Translations under genes and position numbers: made by a program
Shown here: piece after piece, positions 104 to 61,892 of the stretch
Numbering within the stretch: position 1 is the stretch's first letter
Layout of the letters: the number at the start of each line of letters is the position of its first letter
DNA from: Bacteroidales bacterium
Lineage (GTDB): Bacteria; Bacteroidota; Bacteroidia; Bacteroidales; UBA12077
Length of the DNA: 64,000 nucleotides
Direction of reading: 5' to 3'
Assembly: GCA_016342685.1 (NCBI GenBank)
Contig: JAEINU010000004.1
Span: 124,001 to 188,000, forward strand
Notes under the pieces: model-generated
The model's database searches: none
The model's input: only the letters and a program-made list of their open reading frames with translations
What the model was told of the DNA's origin: nothing

Positions 104-598
104 GTGGAAAAAAATTGGTACGCTTTATATACGAAATCACGTTCAGAAAAAAAAGTTAATCTAGAACTTACGAATAAGGGCATTGAATCCTATCTCCCCT
201 TAGAAAAAAAACTAAAAATTTGGAGCGATCGAAAAAAATGGGTTGATGAACCTTTTATACGATCGTATGTTTTTGTACATATAGAAATTGATGATTTTCA
301 TAATGCCTTAAACACCCCAGGAGTGGTTAGTGTAATTAAATTTGGTGGAAAACCTGCCAAAGTGCAAGATGATCATATAAAGATTATTCAAAAGATACTT
401 TCAAGTAACGAGGAATTCGAAATTAGTACTGAAAGTTTTGAGCAAGGAGAGAAAATTGAAATTACGAGAGGCAGTATGAAAGGTTTTTTTGGAGAAATGG
501 TTCATCACTTAAATAAATATAAGGTTTTGATTCGCATTTCATCAATAAATCAGAACCTATTAATAAGAATAAATCCTTCTTTTTTAAGAAAGGTTTAG
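104..598 (+). CDS. UpxY-type NusG-like transcription antiterminator of capsule locus
   Basis: A 164-residue NusG/RfaH paralogue. The N-terminal NGN domain (about residues 1-100) opens with WYALYTKSRSEKKV, the usual UpxY start, and a KOW-like C-terminal domain follows (about 108-150, ITRGSMKGFFGEM). Proteins of this family (UpxY in Bacteroides) are encoded first in capsule operons and let RNA polymerase read through the long leader of their own locus. Its position just before a Wza-like gene and some 30 kb of polysaccharide genes fits this. The start is GTG; no in-frame ATG lies nearby. The leader it might act on is probably the roughly 410 bases between this gene and the next. The family assignment is firm; that it acts in cis is inferred. 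Confidence 0.88.
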   Translation: MEKNWYALYTKSRSEKKVNLELTNKGIESYLPLEKKLKIWSDRKKWVDEPFIRSYVFVHIEIDDFHNALNTPGVVSVIKFGGKPAKVQDDHIKIIQKILSSNEEFEISTESFEQGEKIEITRGSMKGFFGEMVHHLNKYKVLIRISSINQNLLIRINPSFLRKV

Positions 599-1012
599 TT
601 AATTTTGAATAAATTGCCCTTAACTCAATTGGGGCAGGAACTTTAGGCTTTTTCGGACACTAAAAAATGTGACTGAAGAAGCGGAGCTATGCCAAGTTCA
701 AATGTAAAGTCATGCTGTCCCGATAGCTATAGGAAATCGAAGTATGAATAGTAAAACAAAAAGTTCTCCCTGTCATTTCCTACTTGACAGAAAATCATAC
801 AAAAAAACAATGTCATACTGAACCTGTCGAAGTATGAATAGTAAGAACTAATAATTAACCCTTCGACAAGCTCAGGGTGACAATAAAATTTATTCTTAGA
901 AAAAATCTTATTTTCAATTCTTAAAAAAACAAGAATAAATAAAAAGTAGTAATTTGTTAATTGAAGTATTGTCAATTGGTCATTGTTAATTGAAAACAGT
1001 AAAAACAAAGAA
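599..1012. repeat. Leader/intergenic region with palindromic repeats
   Basis: A stretch of 414 bases without a credible gene. Positions 811-838 and 858-882 carry two copies of the window's palindromic repeat in opposite orientation, with stems CATACT/AGTATG and ACCCT/AGGGT. Around 713-750 is a degraded relative that includes TCCCGATAGCTATAGGA. The part from 600 to 712 is less A+T-rich than its surroundings and may be the leader on which the UpxY-like protein acts. I recognise no ops or JUMPstart sequence there. Reading frames across the repeats (for example 727-1035 on the minus strand) are by-products of the repeat. Confidence 0.6.
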
Positions 1013-1798
1013 ATGAAAGTAAAAATAAAGCACATTATTATAATAGCACTTGCAACTTTTATGCTGGCTTCATGTAATTCTTACGAGAAACTTACATATT
1101 TACAAGATATTGAGGAAACAGGAACATCTTCAGTTTTCGAAAAAAATAAACCAGGATATCAAATACAAGCAGGTGATTTGCTTTATGTTCAGATAATTAC
1201 AGAGAATCAGGAAATCAATCAATTATTTAATCCATTTACTTCACAGGCATCATCCCAAAATTTAAGAGCTGAAAGTATGTTTTACACAAGCTATTTGGTA
1301 AATGATTCAGGTTATATTGAAATGCCTTTATTGGAAGAAATTTTTGTTTCTGGATTAAATATAGATCAGGTGCAAGATTCAATTAAACAAAGAGCATATC
1401 GGTTCTTAAAAAATCCACAAGTGATTGCCAAATTAGCCAGTTTTAAATTTACTGTTTTGGGCGAAGTTAAGGCACCTGGAGTAAAACAAGTTACTGCCAA
1501 TCAGGTTAATATAATGGAAGCATTGGCCTATGGAGGAGATATTTCTTATAATGGAAATCGAAAAAAAATATTGTTATTAAGGCAAAGCGATCAGGGAACA
1601 CAAACCTATCGACTTAATCTTGCTAAAGGAAATATTATCGATTCCGAAATGTATTACATTATGCCAAACGATATTATTTATGTTGAACCATTAAAGTCAA
1701 CTTTGTTTAGAGAACAAGCTTCCGATTATGTTTTTGTAATTAGCGCATTGTCTTCGACATTAACTGCAGTTGCACTAATTCTTAATTTGATGAAATAA
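1013..1798 (+). CDS. Wza-like polysaccharide export lipoprotein
   Basis: A 261-residue outer-membrane export protein of the Wza/OtnA (Poly_export plus SLBB) family. I place the start at the ATG at 1013, not at the TTG at 983, because this gives a clean lipoprotein signal: hydrophobic residues 8-17 and a lipobox LASC with Cys21. The export domain begins near residue 45 (YQIQAGDLLYVQI) and an SLBB-type segment lies near VLGEVKAPGVKQV. The last 25 residues are a hydrophobic helix, as in Wza, where the C-terminal helix spans the outer membrane. With the Wzc-like protein at 6493 it should form the envelope-spanning export channel. It is separated from that gene by repeats and sugar-nucleotide genes. 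Confidence 0.9.
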   Translation: MKVKIKHIIIIALATFMLASCNSYEKLTYLQDIEETGTSSVFEKNKPGYQIQAGDLLYVQIITENQEINQLFNPFTSQASSQNLRAESMFYTSYLVNDSGYIEMPLLEEIFVSGLNIDQVQDSIKQRAYRFLKNPQVIAKLASFKFTVLGEVKAPGVKQVTANQVNIMEALAYGGDISYNGNRKKILLLRQSDQGTQTYRLNLAKGNIIDSEMYYIMPNDIIYVEPLKSTLFREQASDYVFVISALSSTLTAVALILNLMK

Positions 1799-2460
1799 AG
1801 GTGTTAAAAATTTGTTATCCTAAGCTTGTCGAAGGATGGATAGTAAATTTTTAAGAGAAGGAATGGTCATACTTCGACAGGCTCAGTATGACAATAAAAC
1901 ACTAAGTATTTAATATGTTAACAAATGTCTTCACACTTCGACGAGCTAAGTGTGACAAAAAAATTTGCAAGAAATGTCATCCTGAGCCTGTCGAAGGGTG
2001 AACAACAAAACACCAATATATAAATCAGGAAATCATACGTCGATAAACTCAGTATGACAATAAAACACTAAGTATTTAATATATTAACAAATACCTTCAC
2101 ACTTCGACGAGCTAAGTGTGACAAAAAAATTTGCAAGAAATGTCATCCTGAGCCTGTCGAAGGGTGAACAACAAAACACCAATATATAAATCAGGAAATC
2201 ATACTTCGATAAACTCAGTATGACAATAAAACACTAAGTATTTAATATATTAACAAATGTCTTCACACTTCAACGAGCCCAGTGTGACAAAAAAATTTGC
2301 GAGAAATGTCATCCTGAGCCTGTCGAAGGGTGAACAACAAAGCACCAATATATAGATCAGGAAATCATACTTCGATAAACTCAGTATGACAATAAAATAC
2401 TAAGTGTCTAATATGTTAACAAATACCTTCACACTTCGACGAGCTCAGTGTGACAAAAAA
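1799..2460. repeat. Dense palindromic repeat array, left half
   Basis: No gene is seen here. The region is built from short palindromes with cores TCGACAGGCTC or its reverse complement. Two solitary copies lie at 1812-1840 and 1867-1893. A regular array then starts: the sequence CTTCACACTTCGACGAGCT or a close variant begins at 1929, 2095, 2261 and 2427, exactly 166 bases apart. Each unit carries three palindromes: a forward one (stem CACACT/AGTGTG), a reverse one (stem near CATCCT/AGGGTG) and a forward one (stem CATACT/AGTATG). Differences between copies are point changes, some of them within stems. Confidence 0.9.
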
Positions 2461-3001
2461 ATGAAAAATTATTACGTATACATATTACTTTGTTCAGATG
2501 GTTCATATTATACAGGAATTACTAACAGTATCGACAAGCGGATTAAAGAACATAATAACAGTTTAGATAAGAAAAGTTATACCTATAATAGAAGACCAGT
2601 AAAAATTGTATATCAAGAATCTTTTCAAAATCCAAATGATGCAATATTGTGGGAAAAAAGAATAAAAGGTTGGACAAGGAAAAAGAAAGAAGCGCTTATA
2701 AAAAAGGATTTTGAAGAATTAAAAAAATTATCAAATAAAAAGAGTCATACTTCGACAGGCTCAGCATGACAATAAAATACTAAGCATCTAAATATATTAA
2801 CAAATGCCTTCACACTTCGACAGGCTCAGTGTGACAAAAGAATTTGTATAAAATGTCATCCTGAGCCTGTCGAAGGGTGAACAACAAAACACCAATATAT
2901 AAATCAGGAAATCATACTTCGATAAACTCAGTATGACAATAAAACACTAAGTATTTAATATATTACCAAATGTCTTCACACTTCGACAGGCTCAGTGTGA
3001 C
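1929..3001. repeat. 166-bp tandem array interrupted by the GIY-YIG gene
   Basis: Unit starts are at 1929, 2095, 2261, 2427, 2808 and 2974. All neighbouring distances are 166 bases except 2427 to 2808, which is 381. In that long unit the usual spacer and reverse palindrome are replaced by the GIY-YIG nuclease gene at 2461-2769. The sequence on both sides of the gene (TGTGACAAAAAAAT before it, AATAAAATACTAAGCATCT after it) matches the corresponding positions of the short units. The array therefore consists of one nuclease-bearing unit and several nuclease-less units in register. Confidence 0.85.
2461..2769 (+). CDS. Small GIY-YIG endonuclease embedded in palindromic repeats
   Basis: A 102-residue single-domain GIY-YIG nuclease of the UvrC-like/YhbQ-like type. 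The fold's motifs are present: YVYIL at residues 5-9, YYTG at 16-19 with the likely catalytic Tyr17, Arg27 in KRIKEH, and the metal-binding Glu65 in LWEKRIKGW. The ATG at 2461 is chosen over 2404 because homologues start at this point and because the upstream extension is translated repeat. The last residues (HTSTGSA) and the TGA stop are encoded by a palindromic repeat copy (2742-2770), and another copy ends a few bases before the start codon. The gene thus fills the space between two hairpins. It may nick or cut the repeat hairpins and so move them; this is inference, no target is known. Confidence 0.85.
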   Translation: MKNYYVYILLCSDGSYYTGITNSIDKRIKEHNNSLDKKSYTYNRRPVKIVYQESFQNPNDAILWEKRIKGWTRKKKEALIKKDFEELKKLSNKKSHTSTGSA

Positions 3002-3038
3002 AAAAACAACTTTCAACTAGCAACTTTTAACTAAATTT
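2770..3038. repeat. Palindromic repeat array, right half
   Basis: The array continues after the nuclease gene with a complete 166-bp unit (2808-2973) and the first palindrome of another (2974-3001), then stops 37 bases before the APS-kinase gene. The final palindrome has the canonical core TCGACAGGCTC, and its stem is CACACT/AGTGTG. Confidence 0.85.
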
Positions 3039-3758
3039 ATGTTTGTAGAACAAAAAAGAAGATCGATAATTAAAACCATATCCTGGAGATTGTGGGCAAC
3101 GATTACTACCATAGCTCTTGTTTTTCTTTTTGTTGGAGAAGTTAAAATAGCTTTATATATTGGTGCTGTTGAGGTAGTATTAAAAATGATTCTATATTTT
3201 GCACACGAAAGGATTTGGAATAAGATTAAATTTGGTAAAAAAGAGGTGCAGCCTGCTGTTTATTGGTTTACGGGCTTTTCCGGATCAGGAAAAAGCACAT
3301 TGTCAGAGAATTTTGTTAAAATTCTTAAAAAAAAAGGCTTGCGTGTTGAACATTTGGATGGAGATTCTGTCAGAGATATTTTTCCAAAAACAGGATTTTC
3401 AAAGGAAGAAAGAAATAGGCATATAAAAAGAGTTGGATTTTTAGCTAGCAAATTAGAAAAGAATGGTGTATTTGTTATTGCGTCCTTTATATCTCCTTAT
3501 CAAGAAACACGAGATTTTGTTCGGAATTTATGCGATAACTTTGTAGAAGTTCATGTATCTACTCCGATTGAAGTATGTGAAAAAAGAGATGTTAAAGGTT
3601 TGTACAAAAAAGCTCGAAATGGTGAAATTACACAATTTACAGGAATCGATCATCCTTATGAAATTCCTAACAATCCAGAAATTACAATTGATACTACACA
3701 TATGAAAGTGGAAGACTCGGTTAATGAAGTATTAAAATATTTTAATTCAATAAAATAA
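3039..3758 (+). CDS. cysC: DUF2061-adenylylsulfate kinase fusion
   Basis: A 239-residue protein with two parts. Residues 1-66 are a DUF2061 domain with two hydrophobic segments (about 18-33 and 37-54). Residues 72-239 are an APS kinase, with Walker A GFSGSGKST at 79-87, the substrate-binding DGDSVR and the family signature ASFISPYQETR. APS kinase phosphorylates adenylylsulfate to PAPS, the sulfate donor for sulfotransferases. The DUF2061 part would anchor the kinase to the inner membrane. No sulfotransferase or ATP sulfurylase is seen in the window, so a role in sulfating the polymer is suggested only by location. The next gene (gmd) starts directly after the stop codon. Confidence 0.88.
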   Translation: MFVEQKRRSIIKTISWRLWATITTIALVFLFVGEVKIALYIGAVEVVLKMILYFAHERIWNKIKFGKKEVQPAVYWFTGFSGSGKSTLSENFVKILKKKGLRVEHLDGDSVRDIFPKTGFSKEERNRHIKRVGFLASKLEKNGVFVIASFISPYQETRDFVRNLCDNFVEVHVSTPIEVCEKRDVKGLYKKARNGEITQFTGIDHPYEIPNNPEITIDTTHMKVEDSVNEVLKYFNSIK

Positions 3759-4868
3759 ATGAAAAAAGCACTTATAACTGGAGTAACGGGACAAGATGGA
3801 GCTTATCTATCAGAACTTCTTTTAGAAAAAGGATATGAAGTTCATGGTATAAAGCGAAGAAGTTCGTCATTCAATACGGATAGAATAGATCATTTATACC
3901 AAGACCCTCACGAACCAAATAATAAATTTCACTTACATTATGGTGATTTAACCGACTCTACAAATATTATTGGAATTATTCAAAAAGTACAGCCCGACGA
4001 AATTTATAACCTTGCTGCTCAGAGTCATGTACAGGTAAGTTTTGAAACTCCTGAATATACTGCTGATACAGATGGATTAGGAACCTTACGAATTTTAGAT
4101 GCTGTTCGTCTTTTAAACATGAGCGAAAAGACACGTATTTATCAGGCATCCACTTCCGAACTTTATGGTTTAGTACAAGAAGTTCCACAATCAGAAACAA
4201 CTCCTTTTTATCCACGGTCACCTTATGGCGTAGCAAAATTATATGCTTATTGGATAACAAAAAACTACCGAGAAGCTTATAATATGTTTGCCAGCAATGG
4301 AATATTATTTAATCATGAATCTCCAAGGCGTGGAGAAACGTTTGTTACCCGAAAAATAACACGAGCGGTTGCAAGAATAATATTGGGTCTCCAAGATAAA
4401 GTTTACTTAGGCAATCTTTCGGCACAACGTGATTGGGGACATGCAAAAGACTTTGTAAAAGCCATGCACCTAGTACTACAACATGATAAAGCTGATGATT
4501 TTGTTATTGCAACAGGTGTTACAACATCTATTCGGGATTTTTTAAGGTATAGTTTCGAAGAAGCTGGTGTTGAACTTGAATTTTCAGGAGATGGTACAAA
4601 TGAAGTTGCTAAAGTAAAATCATTTAAAAAGGACCTTAAATTAAAAGAAGGTCAGGAAGTTGTGGCGGTCGACCCTAAATATTTTAGACCCACCGAGGTG
4701 GATCTTCTAATTGGGGATCCTTCGAAAGCAATGAAAGAGTTAAACTGGAAACCGGAATATGATCTCAAGGCTTTAATCAAAGAAATGATACAAAGCGATA
4801 TTCGCTTAATGAAAAAAGAAAAATATCTGAAGGACGGTGGTTACAATATCTTAAGTTACAATGAATAA
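3759..4868 (+). CDS. gmd: GDP-mannose 4,6-dehydratase
   Basis: A 369-residue short-chain dehydrogenase/reductase that converts GDP-D-mannose to GDP-4-keto-6-deoxy-D-mannose in the cytoplasm. It shows the NAD(P) motif GVTGQDG (residues 8-14), the catalytic pair Tyr156/Lys160 in SPYGVAKLY, and the GMD-type [16 protein letters not shown] stretch. Length and sequence are those of a normal Gmd. It follows the APS kinase without a gap and overlaps fcl by 8 bases, so the two fucose genes are translationally coupled. Product assignment is firm. Confidence 0.96.
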
Positions 4869-5955
4869 AAACAGCAAAATATATCTGGCAGGACATAATG
4901 GATTAGTTGGTAGCGCCATTTTAAAATCCTTAAAAAATAAAGGCTATAATAATATTATCCTTAGAAATCATTCGGAACTTGATTTAACAAACCAACAAGC
5001 TACAGAAGCTTTTTTTCAACAAGAAAAACCAGAATATGTTATTCTTGCGGCTGCCAAAGTAGGGGGAATAATGGCAAATAATACGTTTCGTGCCGATTTC
5101 ATCTATGAAAACATGATGATTCAGAATAATATTATTCATCAGAGTTATGTAAACGGTGTAAAAAAACTTCTGTTTTTAGGGAGTTCATGTATTTATCCTA
5201 AAAATGCTCCACAGCCCATTAAAGAAGAATATTTGTTAAGTTCAGATCTTGAATATACAAATGAACCTTACGCAATTGCTAAAATTGCAGGTATCAAAAT
5301 GTGCGAAAGTTACAATTTACAATACGGAACAAACTTCATTTCTGTAATGCCAACAAATCTTTATGGCCCAGGTGATAATTACGATTTAAACAAGTCGCAT
5401 GTTTTACCCGCATTAATTCGCAAAATGCATTTAGGAAAACTACTTATGCAAAATAATATTTCTGCAATTGTAGAAGACCTCAAAAGAAGACCCATTAGCG
5501 GTTTAGTTGAAATACAAGCAGATGAAAAAAATATTCTTTCTATTCTGAATAATTTTGGGATTATTAAAAATAGTACGGGTGCTATTGAAATAAAACTGTG
5601 GGGATCAGGCAATCCTTTCCGTGAATTTCTGTATTCTGAAGATATGGCAAAAGCATGTGTTTATTTAATGGAAAATATTGATTTTGCTGATCTAATAAAA
5701 GACCAGGAAAGTGATGAAATAAAAAACACTCACATTAATATTGGAACAGGAACCGATCTGAGCATAAAAGATCTTGCATATCTAATTAAGGATATTGTTG
5801 GCTTTGAAGGAGAATTAAGTTGGGATTTATCAAAACCAGACGGAACACATCAAAAACTTTTAAATGTAGAAAAAATAAACAAACTGGGATGGAGCCCTGA
5901 TTTAAGTTTAGAACAAGGAATACGAGAAACTTATACTCTTTATCAAAAAAAATAA
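4861..5955 (+). CDS. fcl: GDP-L-fucose synthase
   Basis: An epimerase/reductase of 364 residues that turns GDP-4-keto-6-deoxymannose into GDP-L-fucose. It has the dinucleotide motif GHNGLVGSA near the start, the active-site SSCIYP stretch and Tyr137/Lys141 in [10 protein letters not shown]. It is about 45 residues longer than the E. coli enzyme; the extra material lies roughly at residues 195-245 between LGKLLMQNN and IELKLWGSG. Similar long forms occur in Bacteroidota. It overlaps gmd and is followed by a repeat region that ends this sugar-nucleotide module. Confidence 0.95.
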
Positions 5956-6492
5956 AATAACGGACCCCATACTTCGACAAGCTCAGCATGACAAAAAAAA
6001 CAAGAGTAATGTCATGCTGATCAGTGTCATTACTCGCTTCGCTCATGAGAAAAGTTCTGAGTTTATCGAAGGATAGACAACAAGAAATAATAAATCATCA
6101 ATATAAAACATAGACACCACACTTCGATAAACTCAGTGTGACAAAAAAGTCAAAGGAAATGTCATGCTGAGTTTATCGAAGCATGAATAGTAAAAATACA
6201 ATTTAAAAAACAGGGGTCGCTCTACGAGAGCCTCAGAGTGACAAAAAAATACACATTTAACTTTTAAACTTGAACTAATAACTTTCTTATCTTTACATAA
6301 TACCCTTACAAATAGCACATAACAAAAACCATGGAACACAACCAAGCCCATAACAACATATATCAAGAAAAAAACAACACAAGAAAAAAGGCAAAGGATA
6401 AAAGAATAAAGGAAAATACCCATTCAACTTTAAACTTTTAACTTGCCAATTAGTTCGTATAAATTTGACTTTAGGCACCAAACCAACAAAAA
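5956..6492. repeat. Repeat-filled intergenic region before wzc
   Basis: 537 bases without a gene. Palindromic repeats lie at about 5968-5992, 6010-6075 (a reverse copy split by an inserted TCAGTGTCATTACTCGCTTC-type segment), 6117-6142, 6158-6183 and a variant at 6213-6245. The stems again covary (CACACT/AGTGTG, CATGCT/AGCATG). The part from 6250 to 6492 has no repeats and contains a probable promoter for the next gene at 6460-6467. The minus-strand frames here are not genes. Confidence 0.75.
6460..6467 (+). promoter_or_regulatory. Likely -7 element upstream of wzc-like gene
   Basis: TAAATTTG matches the Bacteroidota -7 consensus TAnnTTTG and lies 25 bases before the ATG at 6493. No good -33 TTTG is found at the right distance; CTTG at 6442-6445 is close but too near. 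Hence moderate to low confidence. Confidence 0.4.
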
Positions 6493-26472: not shown

Positions 26473-26705
26473 AGTTTTACACAAAAACCACTTCGACGGG
26501 CTCAGTGTGACAATAAAGTACTTTTTGAATAAAGTTAGGTAGTCATACTTCGACAAGCTCAGCATGACAAAAGAGATTTCCGATCGATGTCGGAAATGAC
26601 AAGGTGAAATAGATCCCAAATTATTGATAGGAATAACAAATAACTGTCGCACTTCGACAGGCTCAGTGTGACTAGTGTCAATATGCAGGGATGAGTCATC
26701 CTTCG
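26357..26705. repeat. Direct repeat, left copy: deacetylase tail plus downstream repeats
   Basis: The last 37 codons of the deacetylase gene (from ATG at 26359) and the following noncoding region match 27777-28105 closely. Identical stretches include the end of the gene, CACTTCGACGGGCTCAGTG, and GATCCCAAATTATTGATAGG with following bases. This copy contains a hairpin at about 26540-26570 that the right copy lacks. Confidence 0.85.
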
Positions 26706-26913
26706 ACAAGCTCAGCATGACAAAAAGAGATTTCCGATCGATGTCGGAAATGACAAGATGAAAAAGATCCCCCTATGAAACTAGGGAACTTTTATTCCCG
26801 TTGGTCATGAAAATAGTTCTCACGAACAACGAGAGTAATGACAGTATACGTTTTTTAGCAGTAGAATATAATATTTTAATAATAAACTTAGCTCCTTAAA
26901 ACAAAAGCAGAAA
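26473..26913. repeat. Repeat-rich intergenic region before dinD-like gene
   Basis: 441 bases without a gene. Palindromes of the TCGACAGGCTC type lie near 26488-26512, 26541-26568, 26647-26672 and 26696-26722. A second palindrome type, TTTCCGATCGATGTCGGAAA, occurs twice, at about 26576-26596 and 26729-26749. A third type (AGTTCTCACGAAC ... GAGAGTAATGAC) lies at 26813-26842. The last 70 bases are A+T-rich and probably hold the promoter of the next gene, though no clear TAnnTTTG is seen. Confidence 0.75.
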
Positions 26914-27753
26914 ATGAAAACGGAAATAGTAAAATCTTTAGCTATTAACTTTGAAGATCATTCACAAACTACTGAAAATGGAATAGAGTTCTGGTTTGCA
27001 AGAGATATTCAACATTTGTTAGGCTATTCAGAATGGAGAAATTTCCAAAAAGTAATTGTAAATGCAAAAACTTCCTGTGAGGCAACAGAAAATGAAATTT
27101 TAAACCATTTTGTTAGCGTCAACAAAATGGTTCAATTAGGTTCTGGAAGTGAAAGAGAAATAGATGATATCATGCTAACAAGATATGCATGTTATCTTAT
27201 TGCTCAAAATGGAGATCCTAGAAAAGAACAAATTGCATTTGCTCAAAACTATTTTGCTTTACAAACAAGAAAGTTCGAAGTAATTGAACAAAGAATAAAA
27301 GATTGGGAAAGGCTTCAAGCAAGACAAAAATTGACCCTTTCAGAAAAAGAATTATCTGAATTAATTTATGAACGAACAGGAAATGATAAAAATTTTGGTA
27401 TAATTCGAAGTAAAGGCGATCAAGCTTTATTTGGAAAATCAACGCAACAAATGAAAAATGCTTTAGGTGTACCTAAAGGTAGAGCTCTTGCAGATTTTCT
27501 TCCAACAATTACAATTAAAGCTAAAGACTTTGCTACTGAAATAACCGTTTTTAATACAAAAGAAAAAAATCTAAGACAAGAACGCCAAATATCTGCTGAA
27601 CACATCACAAATAATAGGTCTGTAAGAAAGATTCTTTTAGAAAGAGGAATAAAACCTGAAGAATTACCTCCTGAAGAAGATATTAAAAAATTAGAAAGAA
27701 AGGTGAATTCAGAAAGCAATAAATTAGGAAAAAATCCTGACAAACTTAAATAA
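26914..27753 (+). CDS. dinD: DinD-like DNA-damage-inducible protein (Bro-N domain)
   Basis: A 279-residue homologue of E. coli DinD. The N-terminal BRO-N-like domain shows FWFARDIQHLLGYSEWRNF and LTRYACYLIAQNGDPRKEQI, both typical of DinD, and the C-terminal part matches (RGIKPEELPPEEDIKKLE). E. coli DinD is SOS-induced and inhibits RecA-mediated strand exchange. It has no link to glycans and lies between two direct copies of the deacetylase tail, so it looks like an inserted passenger gene. I see no LexA site I can name. Family assignment is strong, local function unknown. Confidence 0.88.
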   Translation: MKTEIVKSLAINFEDHSQTTENGIEFWFARDIQHLLGYSEWRNFQKVIVNAKTSCEATENEILNHFVSVNKMVQLGSGSEREIDDIMLTRYACYLIAQNGDPRKEQIAFAQNYFALQTRKFEVIEQRIKDWERLQARQKLTLSEKELSELIYERTGNDKNFGIIRSKGDQALFGKSTQQMKNALGVPKGRALADFLPTITIKAKDFATEITVFNTKEKNLRQERQISAEHITNNRSVRKILLERGIKPEELPPEEDIKKLERKVNSESNKLGKNPDKLK

Positions 27754-27776
27754 TTACATCTGGCCACCCAACTAAA

Positions 27777-28105
27777 TCATGTTTACTTTTCATCCTCAAC
27801 GCTGGACTGATAATTCAATTGCTTGGGCAAAAGAATTGGTTTGGCAGAATACTAAGAACATAATAAAGTTCTTTCTAAATAGAATAAGATAAAGTTTTAC
27901 ACAAAAACCACTTCGACGGGCTCAGTGTGACAATAAACTACTTTTTAAATAAAATTAGAAAATAATACTCACAGAATAGATCTCCTTTCAAGCCGGAGAT
28001 GACAAGGTGAAATAGATCCCAAATTATTGATAGGAATAACAAATAACTGTCGCACTTCGACAGGCTCAGTGTGACAAGTGTCAATATGCAGGGATGAGTT
28101 ATACT
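27777..28105. repeat. Direct repeat, right copy
   Basis: Matches 26357-26705 over the deacetylase tail and the following noncoding DNA. Compared with the left copy, one TCGACAAGCTC hairpin is absent and the TTTCCGATCGATGTCGGAAA hairpin is replaced by CTCCTTTCAAGCCGGAG, while the flanking sequence (ATGACAAGGTGAAATAGATC) is the same. The copies have also diverged by point changes in the coding part. Confidence 0.85.
27779..27892 (+). pseudogene. Duplicated 3' end of the polysaccharide deacetylase gene
   Basis: A 37-codon fragment starting MFTFHPQRWTDN and ending FFLNRIR, then TAA. It differs from the intact gene's end at two positions (Thr to Ile and Thr to Ala). There is no upstream part of the gene. 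The fragment marks the right edge of the dinD insertion and has probably no function as a protein. Confidence 0.8.
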
Positions 28106-28476
28106 TCGATAATGTTTCGACAAGCTCAACATGACAATATTAATAACATTATAAATTCAAAATGATCATACTTCGACAAGCTCAGCATGACAAAACAATC
28201 CACAATAAACCGTTCTTAAAAACAATTAATTGTCACACTGTCCCGATAATTATCGGGATATAGGAGAAACGTCATCCTGAGCCTGTCGAAGGATATACAG
28301 CAAAAAAACAATAATCATCAATAATAAAAATTGCATGGTCATACTTCGAGAGCCTCAGCATGACATTATTAATAACATTATAAATTCAAAACAATCATAC
28401 TTCGACAAGCTCAGCATGACATTACTCAGCAAGACAAAACCCAAGCAGCTTTTAACCTGAAAATCTAAACTTATTC

Positions 28477-30015: not shown

Positions 30016-30186
30016 GAGAAACTAAGAAAAGAAGACAATGTGAATAAGATTAGAAATTTCAATGTCATACTGAGCTTGTCGAAGTATGAAAAGGAAATTA
30101 GAATAGATGTGCACACTTCGACAGGCTCAGTGTGACAAGAAAAAGTTATCTGATGAGCTGGAGAGACAAAAAGTAAGCAGTTTTTT

Positions 30187-30273
30187 ATTCTATACTCAAA
30201 GAAATTACGAGAAAAAAACAAAGTCAAAACCTGGGCTCATCCCTCCTTTCTATGTTGATATGCCCAAAATATT
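30187..30273 (+). pseudogene. Fragment of the sugar transferase gene, copy 1
   Basis: About 65-80 bases similar to positions 29810-29885 of the sugar transferase gene, including GTCAAAACCTGGGCTCATCC and TATGTTGATATGCCCAAAA. Homology stops where a reverse palindrome begins (ATTGTCATCCTGAGCTTGTC). It cannot encode a functional product. Confidence 0.75.
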
Positions 30274-30419
30274 GTCATCCTGAGCTTGTCGAAGGGTGAA
30301 GGGTGTTGAAAAGATAGTCGCACTTCGACAGTGCTTCGTCAGGCTCAGCATGACATTACTCAGTGTGACAAGAAAAAGTTATCTGATTAGATGGAGAGAC
30401 AAAAAATAAGCAGTATTTT

Positions 30420-30505
30420 ATTCTATACTCAAAGGAATTACAAGAAAAAATAAAGTCAAAACCTAGGCTCATCCTTCCTTTCTATGTTGATATGCCCAAA
30501 ATATT
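30420..30505 (+). pseudogene. Fragment of the sugar transferase gene, copy 2
   Basis: A second copy of the fragment, part of the 233-base tandem unit, with a few further changes (ACCTAGGCTCATCCTTCC). As in copy 1, similarity ends at a palindromic repeat. Confidence 0.75.
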
Positions 30506-30745
30506 GTCATCCTGAGCTTGTCGAAGGGTGAAGGGTGTTATTTAGTAATGAAAAAAGATGGTCGCACTTCGACAGGCTCAGTGTGACAAAAAATAGATTT
30601 CCGCATCAAGTGCGGAATGACAAAAGGAATAAAAAATAAAAGGAAATATACACACTTCGACAGGCTCAGTGTGACAAGACAGAGTTCTCTGATTGCTGGA
30701 AATACAATAAGCAAGACTTAAGAAATTCGTAAAAAGATAAAGACT

Positions 30746-32380: not shown

Positions 32381-32858
32381 TTAATCAGTAATTAGTTTTA
32401 TATGTCATACTTCGACAGGCTCAGTATGAATAAAACCTATTAAACACACTTCGATAATGCTTCGTCTGGCTCAGCAGACATTGCTCAGTGTGACAAAAAG
32501 TAGATTTCCGATCAAGTCGGAAATGACAAAAAAATATATGGTTAAAAAATTATTGTCACACTGAGCTTGTCGAAGTGTGAATCGTGTAGATATTTGGTTA
32601 AGTCATACTTCGATAAACTCAGCATGACAATACACGCTTTAGATTTCCAAACATATCAAAAAGATCTCCAATCAAGTTGAAGATGACATAATTCCTTTTG
32701 TCATTCCCGTGAAAACGGGAATCTTATAAAAAACACTAAAAACAAATCTCCAATCAAGTTGGAGATGACAAAGAGTAATGCTTTTGTCATACTTCGACAA
32801 GCTCAGCATGACAGTATTTTTTTTCATCCCTTCAACCCTTCTCCTTTTCACATTTTCT
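32381..32858. repeat. Repeat-rich region ending the capsule locus
   Basis: 478 bases without a gene. Palindromes of the TCGACAGGCTC family are at about 32404-32428, 32445-32494 (nested), 32553-32579 (reverse), 32603-32628 and 32787-32813. The second hairpin family appears as GATTTCCGATCAAGTCGGAA (32504-32523), as CTCCAATCAAGTTG(G/A)AGATG variants near 32662 and 32746, and as TCATTCCCGTGAAAACGGGA near 32700. The repeats stop abruptly at about 32815. Confidence 0.75.
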
Positions 32859-61775: not shown

Positions 61776-61892
61776 ATTAGATTGTCATATTGAGCTTGTC
61801 GAAATATGTCTTTATCAGTTGATAAATTCTTCGACAAGCTCAGAATGACTTAATTATATTGATTAATTACTCACTAATATTTTTGAGTAAGT
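61776..61892. repeat. Isolated pair of palindromic repeats
   Basis: A reverse copy (about 61783-61808, stem CATATT/AATATG) and a forward copy (about 61828-61850, TTCGACAAGCTCAGAATGA) lie 20 bases apart between osmC and pheS. This is the only occurrence of the repeat outside the capsule locus in this window. The pair resembles one unit of the larger arrays. Confidence 0.8.

Follow-up and report, generated by a model that had tools for sequence, protein, structure and literature searches.

The window, the whole stretch of 64,000 nucleotides analysed here, carries at 2461..2769 on the + strand the gene of a small GIY-YIG nuclease. The ORF is intact in the window ORF list (ATG 2461 to TGA 2767-2769) and encodes 102 aa, which the ORF, Pfam and homologues together resolve into a UPF0213/Slx1-like domain followed by a palindrome-encoded tail, HTSTGSA. 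GIY-YIG (PF01541, E 3.1e-18) was the sole domain found by a Pfam scan of this protein. An in-frame GTG at 2404 offers an alternative ORF of 121 aa; homologues favour the ATG at 2461. On both sides of the gene lies a palindrome in R orientation, on the − strand, identified in the sequence and by palindrome scan. The 5′ palindrome (2429..2455) ends 5 bp ahead of the ATG. The 3′ palindrome (2745..2771), also seen among the repeats, encodes the last seven codons (H-T-S-T-G-S-A) and the TGA, confirming the original prediction that the stop codon falls within a repeat.

The gene had been predicted to sit inside its own palindromic unit of a 166-bp array, and TRF, the ORFs and the repeats agree with each element of that description. 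We observe 3.6 copies of a 166-bp R-F-R unit by TRF at 1867..2462 (94% matches), and the register resumes at 2746-3009 with 79% identity. A normal unit has three palindromes with the core order R, 31 bp, F, 41 bp, R. In the last unit, with cores at 2434 and 2750, the gene stands in place of the spacer and the F palindrome, which bears out the predicted replacement from the core coordinates themselves. Repeats and palindrome scan show an FR pair (1813..1893) at the start of the array. Beyond the gene they show an RF doublet with 31 bp between cores, made of an R palindrome (2810..2836, − strand) and an F palindrome (2854..2881, + strand), and two further R palindromes (2911..3002, − strand) that end the array.

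The palindrome scan located similar features in several other parts of the window. These are an FR pair between the NusG-like and Wza-like genes (811..882), a cluster that includes an RF doublet at 6122-6181 (5967..6240), clusters at 26485..28420, a cluster at 30065..30675 in which TRF finds a 233-bp tandem duplication (30126-30588), a cluster at 32405..32810, and an FR pair at 61785..61850. The nuclease array and further palindromes are contained in an exopolysaccharide-type gene order at 104-5955, whose genes encode a NusG-like protein, a Wza-like lipoprotein, an APS kinase fused to DUF2061, and nucleotide-sugar enzymes.

The 14-mer palindrome core TTCGACARGCTCAG occurs 125 times in the window's own 4.77-Mb genome and 0 times in a reversed control, an abundance that is far beyond chance. 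Using a 120-bp rule on the window and 56 stretches picked from 100 listed among the 125 pattern places, we found 146 palindromes forming 33 doublets, 26 singles and 13 larger clusters. Within these own-genome stretches, neighbouring palindromes are inverted relative to each other in 57 of 74 pairs. The gap of RF pairs is 31-32 bp in 14 of 34 cases, three of which come from the window's tandem array. In an alignment of 18 RF doublets, conservation ends about three bases beyond the doublet. A preference of doublets for larger inverted repeats or terminators was considered and rejected, as their own flank pairs are no more complementary than swapped ones and 34 of 300 shuffles score as high. Strong folding was also rejected: single palindromes fold weakly, and a 440-nt region folds no better than its shuffles.

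Tagged hairpins around a family of small GIY-YIG nucleases

Profile search of the PDB matches the window protein to UPF0213 BH0048 (1zg2, E 1.8e-19), and a sequence match was also found to a second UPF0213 structure, 1ywl. An AlphaFold model of the nuclease has a pLDDT of 90.3. Foldseek places this model nearest to UPF0213 (E 4e-6 and 2e-4) and then to Slx1 (E 0.006 and up, probability 1.00), the latter matches being Slx1-Slx4 structures (6seh and 7cq4 among the Slx1 entries), some with branched DNA. The protein thus resembles UPF0213 and non-eukaryotic Slx1-like GIY-YIG proteins in both sequence and fold. Y7, Y17, R27, H31 and E65 are invariant across 26 relatives, as are W71 and K75-K76; we take the invariant Tyr, Arg and Glu to be the catalytic residues of the GIY-YIG fold. 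The window clade differs from UPF0213 in a clade-specific conserved segment, KGW(S/T)RxKK, and in its palindromic surroundings; UPF0213 proteins of solved structure are not known to be linked to repeats. An NCBIfam search with the window protein found no family. Long open frames continue from the nuclease domain in L048/L134 (G029; 435 aa) and L085 (G109; 999 aa), and may represent gene fusions or read-through ORFs.

Of 296 genomes from the phylum, 179 gave a nuclease match in a protein search. The palindromes that flank the relatives differ in sequence and share one plan: stem, GAG, loop, CGA, stem. The flanks were therefore scored for tagged hairpins of any sequence, meaning a GAG(2-45 nt)CGA motif enclosed by a perfectly paired 4-bp stem close to the gene. 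When the strand folds, the GAG/CGA tag would give the stem two neighbouring G-A mismatches. Among the best 80 of at least 548 relatives, a tagged hairpin lies upstream in 71, downstream in 68 and on both sides in 62, compared with 15 of 728 control windows taken from these loci; the flanks were read to ~250 bp upstream and 310 bp downstream and the control windows span 250 bp, giving the flanks a slightly larger target, and some loci are cut by contig ends. The remaining 18 of these 80 have no tagged hairpin on one side or more. A concern raised with the original prediction, that homologues might mostly be free of flanking palindromes, is thus answered in the negative. The window is repeat-rich in several places, as would be expected if intergenic palindromes were simply common and the nuclease merely happened to lie in a repeat-rich stretch; the comparison of flanks with control windows refutes such a coincidence.

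A separate set of 81 homologues was scored in the same way. This set includes the window's own gene and some genomes more than once, and shares at least one locus with the set of 80 (L207 = L132). Tagged hairpins are present on both sides in 19/23, 12/19, 11/20 and 7/19 loci from the nearest to the farthest tier, with 2-4% in control windows. When the tag was replaced by seven non-equivalent scrambled tags, with 5-bp stems, the 81 homologues yielded one both-sided locus in total. The usual order is F, gene, R, which holds for 68 of 129 loci by a 3-bp-stem rule. The 3′ tagged hairpin starts ahead of the nuclease stop in 30 of 127 homologues, although a few cases (L069, for instance) appear to be fortuitous. 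Tails of the form STSS or STGS are found in 11 of the 30. The strict tail search misses the 3′ palindrome of the window's gene, which has a mismatch in its stem. These observations define a family of small UPF0213/Slx1-like GIY-YIG nucleases that lie in nests of imperfect palindromes with the inner tag 5′-GAG...CGA-3′.

Most of the 80 relatives are Bacteroidota. Both-sided loci also occur on contigs assigned to Ignavibacteriota, Nitrospinota, Chloroflexota, Vulcanimicrobiota, Cloacimonadota and Delongiibacteriota, and one-sided hairpins on contigs assigned to Nitrospirota and Planctomycetota; all of these are MAG contigs, so misbinning is possible. Matches were found in 22 plasmid records and 23 phage records, all at <60% identity. 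The palindromes near some other GIY-YIG genes (L264, L259, L261, L262 and L270) differ in their inner pattern (GCGAGGAACGAAGC; TTTCGACGAAGGAGAAA), and these may be further sister families. Additionally, distant GIY-YIG genes (E ~1e-13 to 1e-6) are located in or beside tRNA genes at L283-L287 and L292 (G236, G132) and at L272, L276, L278 and L279. In G236 and G132 these form tandem arrays of similar genes ~306-450 bp apart, with a partial tRNA sequence repeated in the units read.

Palindrome type follows the nuclease clade

We grouped the palindromes by loop into type A (CYTGT-like), type B (CGNAGT-like) and type C (TG...AT, long), and were able to assign a type to 112 of 129 nucleases. On the nuclease tree, built quickly under LG+G4 from short proteins and poorly supported at many nodes, loop type changes 20 times, compared with 39-54 changes in 200 shuffles. 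Palindrome loop type therefore follows the nuclease clade, and both stems and loops differ between lineages. The flanking palindrome is of the genome's commoner type in all 25 typed genomes (25 of the 40 with a close nuclease, 15 being left out as mixed or untyped), a result less telling than it seems, since any gene that lies among repeats would have its own genome's type around it.

At the genome level we counted palindromes with two exact patterns, P1 and P2, which miss other palindrome types, and called genomes with 10 or more rich. The fraction of rich genomes falls with the strength of the best nuclease match, from 31/40 at E<=1e-20 to 6/21 at 1e-20 to 1e-15, 18/118 at 1e-15 to 1e-5, and 6/117 with no match. 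For all 296 genomes, the close-nuclease class compares with 30/256 among all others (Fisher 2e-17), and the association persists when stratified by family (OR 7.8, CMH p 5e-5; 100 of the 296 genomes, 12 families typed by hand). The repeats are thus not equally abundant in genomes lacking the nuclease; equal abundance would have counted against the original prediction.

Thirty of the 296 genomes are palindrome-rich without a close nuclease, G109 and G170 falling just short of the cut-off. A profile search of 20 such genomes found family members in 15 and no family member in G002, G277, G192, G279 and G128, which have 16-169 palindromes and contain only long GIY-YIG ORFs (460-671 aa, UvrC-like by length). 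At 30 loci from the 15 genomes, tagged hairpins lie on both sides in three only (G274, G137, G271) and on one side in three. Rich genomes without a bracketed nuclease indicate that palindromes can outlive the nuclease or spread without it. One of them, G002, is a single contig with 169 palindromes that has no nuclease of the family and no Y1 match; it offers a natural case in which to ask whether palindromes persist after loss or have another mobiliser.

Such genomes also fit the main rival reading, in which another enzyme, such as a DDE transposase that works on terminal inverted repeats, spreads the palindromes, and the nuclease is a homing-type passenger that uses them as landing or cleavage sites. 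The dependence of loop type on the nuclease tree argues against a passenger, as does the placement of the gene: it lies between whole palindromes, most often in the F, gene, R order given above, and we saw no single target split by it.

In another reading, the palindromes would be ordinary REPs of a RAYT (Y1/HUH transposase) and the GIY-YIG gene incidental. The window's own genome does contain two near-identical Y1 (RAYT-like) genes, at C9:199448-199690 and C9:246989-247231 (L357, L358), each with a window-type palindrome nearby, and these are the only Y1 loci with a downstream tagged hairpin. However, a different palindrome (GCACAAGCG..CGCTTGCGC) is closer to both genes. L357 and L358 are each flanked on both sides by a palindrome of their own, GCACAAGCGAGACGCTTGCGC, and constitute a separate REP-RAYT system in the same genome. 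Across 32 Y1/RAYT-type loci (30 from the phylum search and the two own-genome genes; L362 has 110 bp upstream only), a tagged hairpin was found upstream in 0, downstream in 2, the own-genome pair, and on both sides in 0. Four rich genomes with a close nuclease, G029, G218, G084 and G234 (132, 54, 40 and 19 palindromes), have no Y1 match at E 1e-4. We therefore rejected RAYT ownership of the palindromes, which is largely refuted and to which we attach very little probability.

Presence and absence of the gene and of a doublet unit

A search of the window's own genome at E <= 1 found one intact nuclease and one remnant. In the remnant ~30 N-terminal codons run straight into a palindrome, and palindromes lie on both sides. 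In the nusG-wza region of the window's genus, G384 has a C-terminal remnant with a palindrome in the interval that holds the 811..882 pair in the window, and G382 has an N-terminal remnant. Nine other congener stretches of this region (L403-L411) have no nuclease; G379 has one elsewhere (L413). G154 carries tandem nuclease copies, which we tried as a guide to the element ends and set aside as they lie 908 bp apart in a messy repeat array.

Several Flavobacterium species and other relatives often keep the nuclease gene at one locus. At an intergenic Flavobacterium site, some species have the nuclease with palindromes, and in twelve loci read the site is 27-120 bp long and, by eye, without such palindromes. 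The junctions of occupied and empty alleles are too diverged to show a split target. G021 combines an empty site of this type with a broken nuclease copy elsewhere in its genome. Seven of the empty sites (L228-L231, L233, L235, L238) hold a different short inverted repeat (AACCTGACAGGTTT..AAACCTGTCAGGTT-like) in the nuclease's place. The original prediction likened this layout to an autonomous element and its nuclease-less derivatives. Truncated remnants fit the derivatives; autonomy fares less well, with the gene kept at one locus in several Flavobacterium species.

Retention at one locus across species, together with a fold nearest to UPF0213 and then to the branched-DNA nuclease Slx1, is also what a domesticated host function would give. 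A structure-specific nuclease could trim or resolve palindrome hairpins or cruciforms, in repair or at transcript ends, with no role in their spread. However, the patchy distribution within a genus, the broken copies and remnants, and the tandem copies of G154 look selfish rather than housekeeping, and a host gene need not be bracketed by its own substrates. We regard a host function as improbable.

Insertion boundaries were sought from orthologous locus pairs, nearly all of which were too diverged between genes to be of use. In one relative, G210, a unit occurs as four dispersed copies, with both orientations represented, and their alignment spans both palindromes, the spacer and a right-hand segment. 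We compared one locus of this unit in stretches from 30 genomes. The site is occupied in G210 and five congeners (one 97% identical), and uninterrupted in nine congeners (L427-L434, L442), which show a 4-9 bp T-rich overlap; because a T-tract underlies this overlap, the precise length of the duplication is uncertain. L435 and L436 are also without the insert, and 13 of the 30 are unreadable across the site. The doublet is therefore present or absent as a unit at this site. The insert is ~165-175 bp long, extends past the doublet, and has by eye imperfect terminal inverted repeats, TIR TATCCCTTT... Two doublets flank G210's own nuclease, with stems that match those of the mobile unit and an identical gap of 43-44 bp.

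The extent beyond the doublet, the imperfect TIRs and the T-rich overlap would also suit a MITE mobilised by an ordinary transposase. The TIR-like ends and the overlap of this unit, along with the rich genomes lacking a bracketed nuclease, keep the homing-type passenger viable. That reading is also consistent with the Flavobacterium site, which holds the nuclease gene in some species and not in others, and with GIY-YIG being a known homing-endonuclease fold (PMC1564403). However, stems and spacing of the doublets beside the G210 gene agree with those of the mobile unit. We judge the passenger reading unlikely, though it deserves more weight than any other alternative to a single system.

A candidate GIY-YIG system and its relation to known systems

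The association of nuclease and palindromes, their co-variation, and the presence or absence of a doublet unit lead us to view the gene and the palindromes as one system, a GIY-YIG counterpart of REPIN-RAYT, with slightly better than even confidence. In the simplest account, an Slx1-like nuclease acting on the tagged hairpin would drive dispersal of the doublets, as RAYTs are thought to do for REPINs. The nuclease may recognise the tagged hairpin in single-stranded DNA or in a cruciform and nick it, and the doublet would then be copied or joined into new AT-rich sites. Doublets without a gene could be its targets in trans, and copies of the gene enclosed by palindromes its targets in cis; the C-terminal tail and stop codon encoded by the palindrome would be by-products of such packing.

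A broader proposal, which we put forward tentatively as somewhat short of an even chance, is that these loci represent a widespread and unnamed class of mobile DNA. A nuclease of ~100 aa would alone mobilise tagged hairpin doublets and co-diverge with them, in Bacteroidota and possibly, as judged from MAG contigs, in eight more phyla. GIY-YIG would then act as a 'transposase' by itself, and the REPIN-RAYT lifestyle would have been invented here independently. In the open-access literature, preprints being outside the scope, we found no description of a link between bacterial GIY-YIG genes and dispersed palindromes, and none of six 13-14-letter forms of the palindrome.

Short-palindrome families are common in bacterial genomes and many are without a known enzyme. 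For one large palindrome superfamily there is now a candidate enzyme, together with a recognition tag (GAG/CGA) and insertions for which empty sites exist. How these repeats spread can thus be tested directly, using a single 100-residue protein and short oligonucleotides. The system also accounts for the recurrent palindrome-encoded C-terminal tails. If the nuclease is the mobiliser, GIY-YIG would join the HUH, DDE, tyrosine and serine enzymes in dispersing DNA without reverse transcription or introns.

Several known systems share some of these features. The G210 unit resembles MITEs in being a short non-coding unit with TIR-like ends and empty sites with a short T-rich overlap; it differs in that the G210 nuclease lies between doublets built in the same way. 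Penelope-like retroelements, according to PMC1564403, combine a GIY-YIG nuclease with RT in a dispersing element, whereas the 102-aa window protein has no reverse transcriptase domain. GIY-YIG homing endonucleases (I-TevI type, free-standing) have the same catalytic domain and a similarly selfish-looking, patchy distribution. In contrast, a Pfam scan of the window protein finds the GIY-YIG domain only, dispersed multi-copy palindromes flank its gene, and no single allelic target was seen. By its PF01541 domain and invariant Tyr, Arg and Glu positions, the protein belongs to the GIY-YIG superfamily.

The closest likeness is to REP/REPIN-RAYT (TnpA-REP, Y1 HUH transposase). The system is not a member, because the defining Y1/HUH enzyme is absent: the window gene is GIY-YIG, and the Y1 loci examined have no tagged palindromes on both sides. 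The conserved tag also differs: it is GAG...CGA and lies inside the hairpin, and the left arm often has a conserved GTCA; REPINs are characterised by GTAG or CGTC at the foot of the palindrome. Apart from the enzyme and the tag, the two are alike in organisation, as anticipated by the prediction of a REP/RAYT-like pair with a GIY-YIG enzyme. Bertels and Rainey (PMC3116915) applied their REPIN doublet criteria with 400 bp; the doublet organisation of the window's genome resembles these criteria, with a singlet:doublet ratio below 2 (26 singles to 33 doublets by the 120-bp rule). Both systems have dispersed imperfect tagged palindromes in inverted doublets of preferred spacing. In both, the enzyme gene is flanked by palindromes, here on both sides in 62 of the best 80 of at least 548 relatives, and is often kept at one locus, and the type of repeat co-varies with the enzyme.
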